NCBI GenBank assembly: GCA_947173495.1
Contig: CAMWFQ010000021.1
Coordinates: 1 to 64,000 of the forward strand
Source of the DNA: an uncultured Lachnospiraceae bacterium
GTDB taxonomy: Bacteria; Bacillota; Clostridia; Lachnospirales; Lachnospiraceae
Direction: 5' to 3'
Length of the DNA stretch: 64,000 nucleotides
The stretch's first letter is position 1, and the number at the start of each line of letters is the position of its first letter. This document shows positions 56,534 to 62,434 of this stretch, piece by piece. The notes beneath the pieces are model-generated. The model ran no database searches and was not told where the DNA came from. It saw only the letters and a list, made by a program, of their open reading frames with translations. The position numbers were made by a program, and so were the translations under genes.

Positions 56534-57750
56534 TTATGTCCGCGTCGCTCCTTCTGTCCCTCTGCCTGCCGACGGAATCCGCAGCACCTGCCCGATATTC
56601 AGCGAACTGCCGGTAAGTCCGTTCAGCCGCCGGATCTCCTCCACCGTCGTACCAAATCTCCTGGCCAGCAGCCACAGGGTATCTCCCGAGCGAACCGTAT
56701 ATTCAAAATAGGACTGGGACGTGTTCACCGGTATTTTCAGCACCTGTCCGATATTCAAAATACTGGTGGTCAGAGAGTTCAGGTTCCGGATCGCATCCAC
56801 CGTTGTACCAAATCTCTGAGCAAGCAGCCACAGGGTATCTCCCGGCCTGACCGTATAGGAGATCACGTTCTCTTCCGGTCCTGTTCCCGGCACGCTTCCC
56901 TGAATATTCAGATAAGTGTCATAGAGCGCCTTCCAGGTATCCGCTCCCACGATTCCGTCCGGCTTGAGACCTCTCATCTGTTGAAAGGCGGTCACCGCCT
57001 GCCTGGTCCCGTTACCGAAAATGCCGTCCTGAGAAATTCCGGGCAGTGTCGGATAAAATTCGGCCGCCACATTTAAAAGATACTGCAGGGTGATCACATC
57101 CGTGCCTCTTGCTCCCTGGCGGAGCACCGAATCAGGCGGAACCGTCCCCACGCCCAGCGAGATTCCCTCGCTATCCAGCTCCGCGAGCCTGGTCACCGCT
57201 GCATACAGACTTGATATTTTATTCCAGGTAGCTTTCCCTACAATCCCATCGGAAGCCAGATTGAAGATACTCTGAAATTTCCTTACTGCGTCTTTTGTAC
57301 TGCTGCCGAAAACACCCTTTTCATCGGTAACGGCGGGAATGGCAGGATAATTTTTCCTGATCCTGTTTAGATAGGTCTGGATGGTCTCCACATCCAACCC
57401 CTTACTGCCTTCTTTCAGCAGAGTTCCCGGATAGGAGGTCAGGATACCGGTAACCGTGTCCGTCTCTGCGATTTCCACATCCTTCGGATAGTAGCTTCTC
57501 AGAATCTGCAGCGGCGTAAGCCCCTGCTGGGCCAGACTCACCGTTCCCCACTGGGACAGCCCGGAGCAGGTAACGGTTGTTCCGTTGCAGAAGGATGTAA
57601 AGTAAGGCACATTCCGTCCCTGCCTGCGTACATATTCGTTGAAGATCTCATCCACGATTCTGCTGATGGACTCGTAGATGGTTCTTCCATATACAAATGC
57701 CTGATCATAGGCCGTACTGTTGGTGATATCGAAACCATAGCCCTGGCTTC
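56534..57750 (-). pseudogene. SleC-like cell-wall hydrolase, C-terminal part of a split gene
   Basis: This is the 3' portion of the gene whose 5' portion is at 61690-62333. From 57743 it reads GYGFDITNSTAYDQAFVYG, then the end of the SpoIID/LytB domain (TCSGLSQWGTVSLAQQGLTPLQILRSYYP). Two peptidoglycan-binding_1 repeats follow (KGLDVETIQTYLNRI; GTDVITLQYLLNV), then two LysM repeats (YTVRPGDTLWLLAQRFGTT; YTVRSGDTLWLLARRFGTT). A GTG at 57655 opens a frame but has no obvious ribosome site and starts inside the SpoIID domain. The segment is probably silent until rejoined. The domain set matches spore-cortex-lytic SleC-type proteins. Confidence 0.88.
57744..57750. other. Left attachment core of the recombinase element
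   Basis: TGGCTTC is shared with 61690-61696. Recombination between the two copies joins codon CGA-AGC-CA to G-GGC in frame. The sequence on the element side is tgtaccccg; the other att has ttaccccg on its element side. Confidence 0.8.
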
Positions 57751-57780
57751 TGTACCCCGCAGCCGGCCCTTATTCGCTGT

Positions 57781-59442
57781 TTATTGTACCACTCCGGTAC
57801 CGCTTCTTGTCCACATGATATTCTCGCTGATCATTTCATCGATATCCATGCCGATAATTTCCGAAGCCCTTTCCTTTGCTTCCGCCTCATTTTCCGTTCC
57901 CAGATTCTTATAAATCTCGTAAGAAGGCTTTCTGTTTCCCTCCAGATCATAGAGCCCTAACGCCAGATGACTTTCCATCTCATAGGCCTCATCCGAATGC
58001 CGGAACAAGATAAAGGCATCCACCTCCGGGAAGGAAGCCGCTTTCAGATAGCCATAGGCTATGGACGCCTCCTGGGCATCCGTTCCAAAGCTGGAGGTAT
58101 ATCCAATCTCCGCAAGGGAAATGCTTCTCACCTCTCCCTGGGGATTCAAAAACTTATCCTGATGCATATAGTCGATCAGAATATCCAGGTTCTGCATGGT
58201 GATATAGGGTGAGGTAATGCTGTCCTTGACCCATACCTCCGGACCGTTCCACGCATAAGGATCATAAAGAGGTGAGTTATAAGGATGAAAAGAAAGACTC
58301 CAGTCGATATTTCCCTCCCTGTTCATATAATAATTGAACTGATCCAGATATTCCTTTGCCAGAAAGCTTCCCGGATTAGACTTCCGGTTCCACTCCTGAT
58401 CAATGGAATTATAAATACGCACATTGGCGTTCTGGCTTTTGATTTCATTATAAATAATCCTGAATGACTTGACATAAATATTCACATTCAGATCCATAGA
58501 ATCCGAGCTGGTATAGCACCAGGAGGTTCTTGCGTTTACCTCATTGCCGATGATCCAGTTATCCACCTGGCCGCAGTCAAAATGACCGGAATAGCGCTGT
58601 CCCAAAAGCGCGCCGATGGCCTTCAGATGAGAAACTCCCTCTTCATCCGCCACATTCAGCGCATACCCCGGACACTCTCCGCCCTCCGAGAGAGGATGCA
58701 GAAGATCCTGAGAATAGAGCCCCTTTCCGCCATTCAGAAGGACTATGGTGACCTGCACTCCGTAGTGGTTCAGACTCCTTAAAGTGGAATCATATCTGGC
58801 AAGGGCATCCCCATCAAAATACCAGGTGCGCCCGTTGTATTCAAAGGGAACCGCTCCCGGCACGCCTTCCGCCGAGCAGATCTCATCCACGTTCATATTG
58901 TAGACCACCTGATGAATTCCAAGCTCCTGCAGCTCCTGCTCCGTCACCTTCGTGATATCCGGAAGGAGCCCTTTGATCCCGGTATCCTGCCGGGCAGAGG
59001 TGTAGCCCGCCAGTGCCTCAGGATTGGTGATATAGTGCTCGTCACTCACCTGGATCATCTGCCCGCTCCGCTTCACTGCCACCAGAAATTTGCAGCTCAG
59101 ATTGGATTCGTCCGTATTGTAATTCAGCGGAAAGCTGACATAAGCAGTCTTTCCCGCCTCCGTCTTTCCCACGATCCTGCCGGTGGTTCCGTCCTCATAA
59201 ACCTCGTCCGCGTAGATATAAAATTTTCCATCGTCACTGGAGGGAACGCTACCCGCCTTCAGCTCACATACCACATCTTCTCCTGAGATCAGACAGGACT
59301 CAATGGATACCGGACGCCCTGCCGCTTCTGCGTACAGCATGCTGCCGGATCCTGTTTTTATGACCATTGCAAGCATCATGCCTGCCGCTGCAGCGGCCGA
59401 CGCCGCCAGTATTTTTATCATTCGTCTCTTCACTTGGCTCAT
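57781..59442 (-). CDS. Secreted DUF5722-type putative glycoside hydrolase (element cargo)
   Basis: About 553 residues. The start at 59442 (MSQVKRR) is favoured because AAAGGA lies just upstream and a signal peptide follows directly (ILAASAAAAAGMMLAM). The upstream in-frame ATG at 59496 is possible. After a beta-sandwich of about 120 residues comes a barrel-like domain with VDNWIIGNEVNARTSW, SFHPYNSPL, SLAEIGYTSSFG and AFILFRHSDEA, typical of DUF5722 and reminiscent of clan-A glycosidases (NE pair and late Glu). Transcribed in the same direction as the interrupted gene, it ends 30 bp from the left core. Substrate unknown; surface or wall glycans are plausible. Confidence 0.8.
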   Translation of the reverse strand: MSQVKRRMIKILAASAAAAAGMMLAMVIKTGSGSMLYAEAAGRPVSIESCLISGEDVVCELKAGSVPSSDDGKFYIYADEVYEDGTTGRIVGKTEAGKTAYVSFPLNYNTDESNLSCKFLVAVKRSGQMIQVSDEHYITNPEALAGYTSARQDTGIKGLLPDITKVTEQELQELGIHQVVYNMNVDEICSAEGVPGAVPFEYNGRTWYFDGDALARYDSTLRSLNHYGVQVTIVLLNGGKGLYSQDLLHPLSEGGECPGYALNVADEEGVSHLKAIGALLGQRYSGHFDCGQVDNWIIGNEVNARTSWCYTSSDSMDLNVNIYVKSFRIIYNEIKSQNANVRIYNSIDQEWNRKSNPGSFLAKEYLDQFNYYMNREGNIDWSLSFHPYNSPLYDPYAWNGPEVWVKDSITSPYITMQNLDILIDYMHQDKFLNPQGEVRSISLAEIGYTSSFGTDAQEASIAYGYLKAASFPEVDAFILFRHSDEAYEMESHLALGLYDLEGNRKPSYEIYKNLGTENEAEAKERASEIIGMDIDEMISENIMWTRSGTGVVQ

Positions 59443-59505
59443 CCTTCCTTTACCTGTATACATCATTTTGATTTCTTTTGGGTAACCGTAAATCATCTGC
59501 CCAAC

Positions 59506-59534
59506 ATTATAACATGCCCTGTCTCAGAAGTCAT
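59506..59534 (-). promoter_or_regulatory. Putative promoter of the DUF5722 gene
   Basis: Minus-strand ATGACT (59529-59534), a 17-base spacer and a perfect TATAAT (59506-59511). It looks like a vegetative sigma-A promoter. Confidence 0.6.
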
Positions 59535-59577
59535 TAAAAAGAGATTAAGGTTAGATGTGTTTCATTTTCATTTCATT

Positions 59578-59606
59578 TTGACATGTAAGATCATCCGCTG
59601 TGATCT
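59578..59606 (+). promoter_or_regulatory. Putative promoter of the recombinase unit
   Basis: A perfect TTGACA (59578-59583), a 17-base spacer and TGATCT (59601-59606, four of six matches). Confidence 0.45.
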
Positions 59607-59673
59607 GTCAGAAGGAAGGAATAACAGCCTCTCTTTGCAAATAGAATTATGTAAAAAGAGAGCTGTCAGAATT

Positions 59674-59850
59674 ATGAAAGAGATCATACACGAAATCCCC
59701 TCCACCTCCTGCATCGGCCATCTGGTACTGCAGTTTCCGGAAACCGCCCCCGATTCTCTTCTGCTCCGGGAACAGATCCGTGAGATACTGTGCCAGGAGC
59801 TGCGGGAGCAGATCCGCAAAATCCCTGAAAAAGGAGCCGATACTCCATGA
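59674..59850 (+). CDS. 58-residue protein coupled to the recombinase
   Basis: A small, charged, helical protein (MKEIIHEIPS; LLREQIREILCQELREQIRKI). Its TGA overlaps the recombinase ATG by four bases, so the two are cotranslated. The ribosome site is weak (AAAGAGAG, far from the ATG). It is not recognised by family. A role as a directionality factor or recombinase partner is suggested only by position and size. Confidence 0.6.
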   Translation: MKEIIHEIPSTSCIGHLVLQFPETAPDSLLLREQIREILCQELREQIRKIPEKGADTP

Positions 59851-61685
59851 AAAAGGTCCGCATTTTATTGAGAGTCAGCTCCGGACAACAGCTGGAGGCC
59901 GATGGCGATCTTTCCATACAGCGCCAGCTGGTGAGAGAATACGTCGCCCGTCAGGAGAACTGGCAGCTGGATGAAACGGAATATTTCGAGGGCAGCATCA
60001 GCGGCTACAAAACTGCTCTGGAAAAAAGAGATACTCTGCAGAAAGCCCTGGATGATGCCCGGAAGGGAGAATATGATATTCTGGCTGTCTATAAGGACGA
60101 CCGGATCGGCAGGCGCATGTGGGAGATCGGTGCCTATGTAATGGCGCTGAAGAGCTGCGGCGTCGATATCTATACGGTAAAGGACGGCTGCATCTCTCCC
60201 GAAAGCGATGATATCATGGGGCAGATGATGCTGGCGCTTCGTTACGGCAATGCCCAGAAGAGCAGCTCTGATACCGGAATGCGTGTCAGGGACACTGCTT
60301 CCAGAATGGTTCTGCAGGGCAAATTTATGGGCGGCCCGGCCCCCTACGGCTACCGGCTGGTATTATCCGGAGAAATCAGCAAGCACGGACGGGCCCTCCA
60401 CAGACTGGAAATTGTTTCTGAACAGGCCGAGGTGGTAAAGTATATCTACCGCCTTTTTCTTTACCGGGAGTTCGGCTCTGCCAGAATTGCCAGGACGCTC
60501 AATGAGGATGTGTATTACAAAGAGATGGCCCCCAGGAACACCTGGATGAGCGGAACGATTTCCGGTATCCTGTCCAATCCCGTCTATGCGGGCCATTCCG
60601 CCTACCGACGCCGGGAAAAAACAGATGGTTCTTCCCACAGGCAAAACCGGCAGGACTGGATCCTCTCCGAAAGAGCCGATCCTTCCCTGGTAATCATTGA
60701 CCGGGAACAATGGGAACGCACCCAGACGCTGCGGGAGGAGAAGGCACGCAAATATTGCGGCAAGTTTTGCGGCAAATATTGCGGCAAGTATTGCGACAAT
60801 CATGGCGACAGATACGGCGACCGGAACCGGGACAAAGCTTTTTACAAAGCTGATGTCAATTATCGGGATAAGAATCCTCCCAGAGAGGATGCACAATATC
60901 CCGGTTCCACCTCTCTTCCGGCTCATTCTGCCAGCACGGGAAACGGCAAAATACTGCCTCTGACAGATGTGATCTTCTGCGGATACTGCAAAAACAGACT
61001 GACAAACGGCACCAGATACAGCTACTGGACTCTCAAATCCACCGGGGAGAAGCGCGCCCGCCGGATTCCCATGTACCGCTGTCCGGCAGCACAAAAAGGA
61101 CTGCCTCACAGCCGAAGTGCACAGGTTCGCGCCGATGAAATCGAACCTCTTGTGTTTTCTTTTCTGGGAGATCTCATAGAAAAACTGCTGAAAAAAGAAT
61201 CTGTCTCCGATATTCTGACCCGGGAGTACAGACAGGAACAAAAGCAGCAGGGAGCCCATCTGAAGCTCCTTCAGAAGGAGCTCTCCAAAATCACACAGGA
61301 TATAGAAGAACTGGAAGCGCACACTCCTGACGCCATGGCGGGAAGGCTTCCCTTATCTTTGGAAGAGCTGACCGGGCTTATCAGAAAATACAAAGAAAAG
61401 CAGGCCGTAAAAAAACAGCTCCTAGAGCAAAAATCTTCGGAACAAAAAACTTTAGAGCAGAGAACTTCGGAACAAAAAACACTTTTGCAGGAAACCCCTT
61501 CACCAGACGCTTCTTACCCCCAGGGCGCTCCGACGCCGGTTCAGGGGTTTCCCACATCCTGGCGGCAGGTTTTCAGCAGGGCGGACGACGCCTGCAAGCG
61601 CATGCTGGTAAACCGGCTGATCGAACGGATCGAAATCACCCCGGAGATGGCCGTCGTCCGCTTCCGGATTCCTTACCCCGAATGA
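59847..61685 (+). CDS. Large serine recombinase
   Basis: A 612-residue site-specific recombinase. The N-terminal resolvase domain has catalytic Ser11 (LLRVSSGQQ), SIQRQLV, and DILAVYKDDRIGRRMWE with the conserved Arg residues. The recombinase domain (APYGYRL, SARIARTLN, SGILSNPVYAGH) is followed by an unusual Cys/Gly repeat insert and a zinc ribbon near residues 377-413 (FCGYC...YRC). A long coiled coil with EQK repeats leads to the C-terminal beta segment (IERIEITPEMAVVRFRIPYP). Its stop lies beside the right att core. It is expected to integrate the element and, with a partner, excise it. Confidence 0.95.
   Translation: MKKVRILLRVSSGQQLEADGDLSIQRQLVREYVARQENWQLDETEYFEGSISGYKTALEKRDTLQKALDDARKGEYDILAVYKDDRIGRRMWEIGAYVMALKSCGVDIYTVKDGCISPESDDIMGQMMLALRYGNAQKSSSDTGMRVRDTASRMVLQGKFMGGPAPYGYRLVLSGEISKHGRALHRLEIVSEQAEVVKYIYRLFLYREFGSARIARTLNEDVYYKEMAPRNTWMSGTISGILSNPVYAGHSAYRRREKTDGSSHRQNRQDWILSERADPSLVIIDREQWERTQTLREEKARKYCGKFCGKYCGKYCDNHGDRYGDRNRDKAFYKADVNYRDKNPPREDAQYPGSTSLPAHSASTGNGKILPLTDVIFCGYCKNRLTNGTRYSYWTLKSTGEKRARRIPMYRCPAAQKGLPHSRSAQVRADEIEPLVFSFLGDLIEKLLKKESVSDILTREYRQEQKQQGAHLKLLQKELSKITQDIEELEAHTPDAMAGRLPLSLEELTGLIRKYKEKQAVKKQLLEQKSSEQKTLEQRTSEQKTLLQETPSPDASYPQGAPTPVQGFPTSWRQVFSRADDACKRMLVNRLIERIEITPEMAVVRFRIPYPE
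60750..60833 (+). repeat. Seven 12-bp repeats in the recombinase gene
   Basis: The units encode KYCG KFCG KYCG KYCD NHGD RYGD RNRD between the recombinase domain and the zinc ribbon. The first four are nearly identical in DNA (aaatattgcggc), and later units decay. Confidence 0.9.
61425..61484 (+). repeat. Two 30-bp repeats in the recombinase coiled coil
   Basis: Two tandem units encode EQKSSEQKTL and EQRTSEQKTL, extending the C-terminal coiled coil. Confidence 0.8.
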
Positions 61686-61689
61686 CCCA

Positions 61690-61696
61690 TGGCTTC
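61690..61696. other. Right attachment core of the recombinase element
   Basis: The second copy of TGGCTTC, four bases after the recombinase stop codon and inside the SpoIID-coding part of the split gene. Confidence 0.8.
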
Positions 61697-62333
61697 GCCA
61701 CCACTCAGTGAATACTCTGTTCAGCGCAAAGGTAATGATCGCATAGATATTCGCCCGCAGAGCGGCCTCCGGCCAAGTAGGATAAATCTCACTGCTGGCC
61801 ACATTTTTTACATAATCGGGAAAGGATACCTGCACATCCGCCGCCCAGGAAGAAGGACTTCCCAGATGTACCGTGATGGGATTGGGAATCACCACATGTC
61901 GCAGGATCTGAGGTTCTTCCTCCTCCTTTGGTCCCGGCTGGAAATGCCCTTCCTGCGTAGCCACTGCGGGCTTTCCTATCACAATTTCCGTCCACACAGG
62001 ACTGCGCTGATCCGCCTGCATTGGTACCAGCACAAGGGGCTGAATTGCGGTTTCTCCTTCATAGATGGGAATGCCTGAAATGTAGATGGAATTGAAGCCT
62101 TCCTTCTGCGCCGTTACATAATAGCTCACATAAACCGCACCGGAATAATCCGGATTCAGGGAAAGACTCCTCTCCAGCGTTGTCAGAGACACGCTTCCCG
62201 CATCTCCGCTCTCATCGGTTGTCAAATCATAGACCACCTGCCCTTTCCCGTCCAGAATCTGAATCCGAACGCCGCTTAAAGGAAGGGCCTCATGAGCCGT
62301 TCTTGCCTGTAGGATCAAATAACCTTCTGCCAT
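61690..62333 (-). pseudogene. SleC-like cell-wall hydrolase, N-terminal part of a split gene
   Basis: The 5' portion of the interrupted gene, with AGGAG eight bases before the ATG. It encodes a beta-sandwich domain (SGVRIQILDGKGQVVYDLTTDES), a second module (YYVTAQKEGFNSIYISGIPIY) and the start of the SpoIID/LytB domain (PDYVKNVASSEIYPTWPEAALRANIYAI; the Glu of SSEIYP matches the catalytic Glu of SpoIID). In the integrated state the frame runs into the element and stops at 61500, giving a 277-residue truncated product with 63 foreign residues. Joined to 57743-56534 it makes a 617-residue enzyme of SpoIID, two PG-binding and two LysM modules. Spore cortex lysis at germination is the likely role. 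Confidence 0.88.
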
Positions 62334-62406: not shown

Positions 62407-62434
62407 TAGTATATGATTCGGAAGGCAAAAGGTG
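62407..62434 (-). promoter_or_regulatory. Sigma-K-like promoter of the split gene
   Basis: On the minus strand -10 CATATACTA (62407-62415) fits the sigma-K pattern CATANNNTA exactly, and CACC (62431-62434) at 15 bases fits the -35 mACm. It is also close to sigma-E -10 sequences. No sigma-A hexamer pair is evident. Confidence 0.55.

Follow-up and report, generated by a model that had tools for sequence, protein, structure and literature searches.

The window analysed here, 64,000 nucleotides (nt) of contig CAMWFQ010000021.1 from an uncultured Lachnospiraceae bacterium, carries a sleC-like spore germination gene on its minus strand (62333 to 56534), which is broken by a 3,946-bp element encoding a large serine recombinase (Table 1). 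The two halves of the gene lie on the same strand and in order, as around an intervening element, and in silico removal of the 3,946 bp gave a single frame of 617 amino acids plus a stop codon, that is 1,854 bases with neither a stop nor a frameshift within the 617 codons. The initial annotation of this DNA, according to which a 3.9-kb serine recombinase element split a SleC-like gene of exactly 1,854 bases (618 codons including the stop), thus proved correct in these points. The joined protein matched chain 9h68 of the PDB ('Spore cortex-lytic enzyme pre-pro-form') over residues 33–405 with an E-value of 9.7e-72, the alignment crossing the junction, and the short sleC paralogue of the same genome matched the same chain over residues 3–370 of 372 (E 2.9e-123). 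Since both proteins matched this solved chain, the interrupted gene was identified as sleC, namely its longer type, which encodes two peptidoglycan-binding and two LysM domains according to Pfam. Uninterrupted orthologues, which the initial annotation had proposed to look for, were found in full length in the genus and were 65–70% identical to the joined protein (the query was joined as in that annotation).

Table 1. Features of the interrupted sleC locus, with positions counted in the 64,000-nt window
Feature	Position	Strand	Remarks
Split SleC-like gene, 3′ (C-terminal) part	56534..57755	-	Remainder of the SpoIID-like domain, 2 × PG_binding_1, 2 × LysM (Pfam)
att site bordering the 3′ half	57741..57764	-	GT = AC at 57754-57755 (+ strand); dyad centre
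TGGCTTC, first copy	57744..57750	+	Probable recombinase-arm motif, not the crossover
Putatively excisable element, crossover to crossover	57754..61699	.	3,946 bp
DUF5722 cargo gene	57781..59496	-	571 aa, divergent; Pfam E 9.1e-131
Promoter-like motif GGAATAACAGCCTCTCTTTGCAAATAGAATTA, sigma-E-like	59618..59649	+	Motif over 40 elements
Small open reading frame (ORF), candidate recombination directionality factor ('LEFP' ORF)	59674..59850	+	58 aa; overlaps the recombinase start (ATGA)
Large serine recombinase	59847..61685	+	612 aa; Pfam Resolvase, Recombinase, zinc ribbon
att site bordering the 5′ half	61687..61710	-	GT = AC at 61700-61701 (+ strand); dyad centre
TGGCTTC, second copy	61690..61696	+	Probable recombinase-arm motif, not the crossover
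Split SleC-like gene, 5′ (N-terminal) part	61702..62333	-	ATG at 62333 down to the crossover; ORF list, joined frame, PDB 9h68 match
Sigma-K-like promoter motif ACCTTTTGCCTTCCGAATCATATACTA, upstream of the 5′ half	62407..62433	-	100 nt upstream of the ATG

The crossover point was localized by comparing the loci split at the same codon as in the window (site A). A GT dinucleotide was present at both junctions, at the identical position of the gene, in 24/24 site-A loci with both halves in hand (the junction script required GT, and 0/24 loci were excluded for want of it; the set leaves out L088 and the loci of site D, see below), and all 24, when joined at GT, read through the junction. In L081, L082, and L086 the two junctions have nothing in common beyond the GT. 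The reconstructed attP showed a dyad centred on this dinucleotide, with a mean of 9.5 of 17 arm pairs compared with at most 5.4 at 24 other centres, and the attP of the window had 8 arm pairs at GT compared with at most 6 at 28 other centres. Joined at GT, the window sequence is GAG TGG TAC AGA AGC, that is EWYRS (EWYRSQGYG in full), while the uninterrupted orthologues L018 and L019 read EWYRSRGYG and 9h68 reads TEWYRNKGYNF. Because the GT is common to all junctions, the dyad is centred there and both the orthologues and the solved SleC have EWY, we concluded that the join reads EWYRS. The initial annotation had bounded the element by its TGGCTTC copies and read WWRSQGYG across the join; its restored frame stands, and so does the length of the element, but the residues had to be corrected, as the orthologues aligned around this segment have EWY, not EWW. 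The pair of TGGCTTC copies is real, but the crossover lies at the GT 10 nt away. Since TGGCTTC (GAAGCCA on the gene strand) was not common to the other site-A loci, and the dyad and the orthologues point to GT, it was ruled out as the crossover core; lying equidistant from GT on both sides, it is probably part of a recombinase half-site.

The sole exception to the GT rule was the second sleC of G257 (L168, L169), where CT occupies the position of GT; the residues there are EFY, and CTAC is common to both junctions. G257 also holds an intact sleC besides this CT-type split copy.

The recombinase of the window is intact by sequence, as the catalytic-type residues R9, S11, D85, R86, and R89 are among those invariant across seven aligned recombinases and are kept in the window copy. 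Its nearest solved relative by sequence is YokA (SprA) of SPbeta (E 9.2e-13). With 612 aa it is longer than most relatives (about 530–590 aa), of which two reach 619 and 633 aa. Directly upstream lies a small ORF, which the initial annotation did not name. Homologues of this partner ORF precede the recombinase in 45/51 site-A loci (near-copies counted), either overlapping with it or at a distance of up to about 210 nt, and they share a conserved (V/I)xLxFP motif followed by a helix. Of the six loci without a match, three are missing the DNA upstream and two others represent one species, while eight of the matches came from a profile built without them. The partner ORF profile found no chain below E 0.4 in the PDB, and no SprB-bearing chain was matched. 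According to the cited account, sprA together with the 58-aa sprB is enough for a minimal SPbeta to be excised (PMC4191935). As SprB is of the same length and needs only SprA besides it, a role as recombination directionality (excision) factor is the natural guess for the partner ORF, which we regard as a candidate by this analogy.

The other gene of the element encodes a DUF5722 protein, whose subfamily (67–83% identity; 71–78% for the members inside site-A loci) recurs in eight other site-A loci belonging to 7 genomes (L057, L060, L073, L074, L077, L078, L079, and L080; L073 and L074 belong to one genome), and adjoined sleC in L039, L040, and L096. The genome of the window has two more DUF5722 genes, which are only 32–38% identical to the cargo gene. 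The subfamily seems tied to sleC, either inside the elements or beside an uninterrupted or otherwise split sleC. The smallest elements (approximately 2.0 kb, L075 and L086) lack DUF5722, and the partner ORF and the recombinase alone were found in them; some large, cargo-rich ones measure 14–18 kb (L083, L085). The element had no near match in phage records, the recombinase matches in phage and plasmid records were all under 60% identity, and a terminase model found nothing in a viral contig holding a related recombinase.

Upstream of the partner ORF, a promoter-like motif, GAAT(A/G), 16 nt, (C/A)ATA, was found over 40 elements with 15.8 bits compared with 9.7–10.6 bits in eight shuffled sets. 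A tight sigma-E pattern occurred upstream of the recombinase in 13/46 cases (shuffle mean 5.1, maximum 10; antisense 3), and, measured against the consensus spacings, the motif fits sigma-E better than sigma-G. Upstream of sleC itself, AC-N15-18-CATAnnnTA was detected in 34 of 69 sequences, including the window (shuffle mean 1.8, maximum 6; antisense 4). In C. difficile, the −35 element is described as ATA for sigma-E and AC for sigma-K, and sleC as sigma-K dependent and essential for germination (PMC3789822). The two motifs thus suggest that excision may take place early in the mother cell, followed by late transcription of sleC in the same cell. The first upstream motif search picked a coding motif of the small ORF, which was discarded as it was not a promoter. 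An inverted repeat (CTCTCTTT ... AAAAGAGAG, 59629-59663) reaches across the promoter-like motif that precedes the recombinase operon; it may be an operator.

The split recurs widely among relatives. A recombinase scan of the named genomes gave 30 loci, 28 of them with a sleC fragment; 27 of these carry a relative of the window recombinase and L072 only a remnant, while of the two loci without a sleC fragment L066 is cut by the contig end and L071 holds unrelated recombinases. Cultured commensals such as Anaerobutyricum hallii DSM 3353 (L070) and Dorea sp. 5-2 (L047) are among the hosts of a split sleC. In the genus of the window, 13/37 genomes have a junction (G000, G003, G004, G006, G008, G013, G018, G019, G023, G024, G031, G032, and G036) and two more are likely split (G016, G027). 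The bacterial family was surveyed in 397 genomes, mostly one per genus, 255 of which have SleC; 46 of these were re-examined, chosen by a weak best E-value or, in the case of G257 and G198, for related recombinases, and 209 were not examined. At least 33 of the 255 sleC-bearing genomes have a split copy, a lower bound since a genome carrying a split copy beside an intact one would escape notice. Thirteen genomes were not counted as split, either for intact copies, contig ends or frameshifts (G080, G102, G110, G112, G123, G133, G134, G182, G187, G198, G241, and G376) or because the contig ends at the site (G087), and in some split genomes one of the two junctions was seen, with the halves on different contigs. 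Twelve of the 33 genomes are split at site A (G068, G078, G140, G179, G199, G224, G240, G257, G350, G354, G384, and G399), 19 at site B, which lies in the SpoIID-like domain around TGACC (CPNWM/TQWGS), and two (G228, G321) at site C (VVIP/EY), where two loci have an in-frame join. A fourth site (site D) was found in the short sleC of G006 and G019, near residue 255 (L096; L154, L155); the insert in L096 is 11 kb long with several recombinases. Both the long and the short sleC paralogues are targets. No other full-length sleC was found in 29 of the 33 split genomes (exceptions G060, G257, G261, and G384; some genomes are incomplete). SpoIVA was present in 44 of the 45 split or suspected genomes checked, G199 being the exception and G140 and G257 lying outside the 45. 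Among 392 genomes of the order, relatives of the recombinase above 60% identity (n=8) were confined to the bacterial family of the window, and seven of them have a sleC fragment in the fetched flanks (not L119). The recurrence of the split at the codon of the window in dozens of loci is, judged by these sequences, far beyond chance.

The site-A recombinases make up a single profile family, divided into two clearly distinct branches (598–951 bits, the profile having been built from these same proteins), and all of them fall on the same side of a tree branch whose Shimodaira–Hasegawa-like approximate likelihood ratio (SH-aLRT) support is 88. Those of sites B and C scored 34–87 bits against this profile, and site B makes up a starred branch of its own. 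The low scores and the separate branching of site B show that unrelated recombinases reached one and the same gene.

Several loci deserve mention by themselves. In L062 (5986-13302), one sleC is interrupted twice, at sites C and A, and its site-A recombinase also occurs on a viral contig (L111); ORFs nearby are presumably ribonucleotide reductase and dUTPase genes, judged by eye. G032 (L075 with L080) and G350 (L086 with L149 and L150) each have both of their sleC paralogues split at one and the same codon. No recombinase was detected in the L080 element, which might rely on the other copy in trans. The sleC of L087 (G241) has no insert and is frameshifted in this region, probably by an assembly error, as the SpoIVA match is also broken in two there.

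To see how the halves evolve while separated, the ratio of nonsynonymous to synonymous substitution rates (dN/dS) was calculated for four pairs of loci with a common split, whose recombinases diverged alongside and whose synonymous divergence (dS) is 0.2–0.9. The ratios for the 5′ and 3′ halves were 0.06 and 0.00 (L057/L060), 0.02 and 0.01 (L081/L082), and 0.01 and 0.09 (L054/L059), and that of the 3′ half was 0.03 in L079/L107, while the recombinases of the four pairs gave 0.13–0.17 and intact sleC pairs 0.02–0.15 and 0.02–0.10. The halves thus stay under purifying selection while split, suggesting that they are not broken for good and lending indirect support to a functional rebuilt gene. 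Direct dN/dS values of the window gene are unusable because silent sites are saturated or nearly so relative to its relatives; the differences between its 5′ half and that of L014 (approximately 0.25, 0.20, and 0.55 by codon position) are like those of intact genes. An inactivating insertion, which would leave a pseudogene, was not supported, as relaxed constraint was not seen: stops are missing and the four split pairs gave 0.00–0.09, the window itself being judged by its codon-position pattern and the tree only. Recombinases 99% (L070/L085) and 98% (L043/L069) identical were found in sleC genes with a silent divergence of 1.9 and with saturated silent sites, respectively, and L063/L067 showed a weaker sign of the same (dS 0.36 for the recombinase, 2.9 for sleC). 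Near-identical recombinases in far-diverged sleC genes indicate that the elements move between hosts.

These results can be arranged into a model, in which a large serine recombinase would once have integrated the element at the GT of a conserved codon pair (W-Y) of sleC. The gene would stay split in vegetative cells and in the chromosome of the spore, while in the sporulating mother cell the sigma-E-type promoter would switch on both the recombinase and the small ORF. The product of the latter would act as directionality factor, attL and attR would recombine, and the circle would be lost with the dying mother cell; the rebuilt sleC would then be transcribed from the sigma-K-type promoter and the resulting pro-SleC laid into the spore. 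We consider it quite probable that the element is such a sleC-intervening element, excised in the mother cell to rebuild sleC. This reading is supported for the family by the sequence comparisons and is likely for the window copy. The proposal of the initial annotation, a skin- and SPbeta-like class acting on a cortex-lytic gene, was thereby strengthened through the relatives (recurrent splits at fixed codons, purifying selection, motifs, partner ORF, and the scarcity of other intact sleC copies), while for the window copy taken alone a plain insertion, the alternative named in that annotation, may still apply, since the second sleC is intact.

Several observations weigh against excision in the mother cell. 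One is the second sleC of the window's genome, which is intact. When the assembly of the window was searched for all four att forms with one pattern, only the two hybrid junctions came up and neither attB nor attP, and the exact attP and attB patterns gave 0 matches each in IMG/VR; missing excised forms are expected for vegetative DNA, yet they leave the model with no positive sign. Tandem repeats of 12 and 15 bp (60748-60799 and 61423-61480) enlarge two linkers of the recombinase, and the SleC of the window has the longest end branch (0.36) of 22 long-type proteins. The partner ORF belongs to no family in Pfam, PHROG, or NCBIfam, and the structure predicted for it, composed of a beta hairpin plus a helix, has moderate confidence scores (predicted local distance difference test score 72, predicted template modelling score 0.41). 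The motifs of the 40 elements, 18 with GAATA or GCATA and 14 with GAATG, are assigned to sigma-E by motif only, and looser patterns upstream of the recombinase stayed within the shuffle range both for sigma-E (14; shuffle mean 10.1, maximum 19) and for sigma-K (18; mean 14.2, maximum 22). Finally, L122-L124, relatives with 30–31% identity from other families, have no sleC within their 1.5-kb flanks.

Part of these data would also suit other explanations. The elements could be selfish, using the conserved sleC as attB and excising for transfer only, with the inactivated gene tolerated thanks to a second sleC; the spread of near-identical recombinases across hosts with far-diverged sleC, the large cargo-rich elements, and the intact second copy in the window's genome speak for this. 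It seems unlikely, however, given that the halves remain under purifying selection in the split pairs, 29/33 split genomes have no other full-length sleC found, the promoter motif and the partner ORF are conserved throughout the family, and the approximately 2-kb elements hold nothing but the partner ORF and the recombinase as far as found. A once-working intervening element could have begun to decay in the strain of the window so that it is no longer excised, as the repeat expansions of the recombinase, the long SleC branch, and the L080 element with no detected recombinase might indicate, and the spare intact sleC would make the loss of excision tolerable. Against such decay, which we think improbable, stand the catalytic-type residues shared with six other aligned recombinases, the codon-position differences resembling those of intact genes, and the 617 codons free of stops and frameshifts. 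A heritable switch that turns germination capacity on and off reversibly, a kind of bet hedging not limited to the mother cell, would agree with the targeting of both sleC paralogues and with the yin element of yabG, whose excised form is described as present at all culture time points (PMC10747680). The window's assembly contained no excised form, however, and the recombinase operon is preceded by a motif resembling a mother-cell promoter, making such a switch very improbable.

By its type, the sleC element belongs with the sporulation gene-intervening elements such as skin, SPbeta, vfbin, gin, and yin. Those in sigK, spsM, spoVFB, spoVR, gerE, and yabG are each described in the cited accounts from one or few species (PMC5595907, PMC5025042, PMC10747680). 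The skin element in sigK of C. difficile (CD1231, CD1234) is likewise a serine recombinase element in a mother-cell gene, requires a small directionality factor, and rebuilds the gene by excision (PMC5025042). However, its target is a sigma factor instead of a germination hydrolase, while in the sleC elements the recombinase and the candidate factor adjoin or overlap and many genera and several sites of one gene are involved; CD1234 and the partner ORF are set side by side here from description. SPbeta in spsM of B. subtilis (SprA, SprB) offers the nearest solved recombinase and a 58-aa partner, and its minimal form resembles the approximately 2-kb sleC elements, but SPbeta is an active phage, the smallest sleC elements have only about 2 kb, and the partner profile matched no SprB chain. 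Like the sleC element, gin in gerE of B. cereus (GirC, GirX) is described as a non-phage element with a recombinase and a directionality factor and with sporulation-timed excision, though in another gene, with three recombinase genes, and named in B. cereus and B. toyonensis strains (PMC5595907). The target of yin in C. botulinum acts in the same pathway, as YabG processes pre-pro-SleC in C. difficile, but yin is prophage-like, described as unique to one strain, and sits in another gene (PMC10747680).

In literature titles and abstracts no element in sleC was reported (the search was made without preprints and most subscription papers), and within the searches made the novelty lies in the target gene, in its scale, in the use of several sites and several recombinases within a single gene, and in the partner family. 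About one eighth of the sampled sleC-bearing genomes of the family have the germination gene sleC split, at several sites and by unrelated recombinases. We lean towards the broader view that sleC may be a dedicated DNA-splicing locus in the host family, where unrelated serine recombinases would have settled independently at four fixed sites, germination capacity would be locked until the mother cell rejoins the gene, and a new small excision-factor family, the 'LEFP' ORF, would serve this process. If excision is confirmed, why spore formers keep such elements becomes a comparative test, sleC may prove to be wrongly annotated as broken in many commensals, and a set of recombinases with a known attB site and candidate excision factors would be at hand. 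Elsewhere in the genome of the window, three adjacent serine recombinase genes (G000:C4:29076-33261; L006, L008) were found, which perhaps belong to another mobile element.

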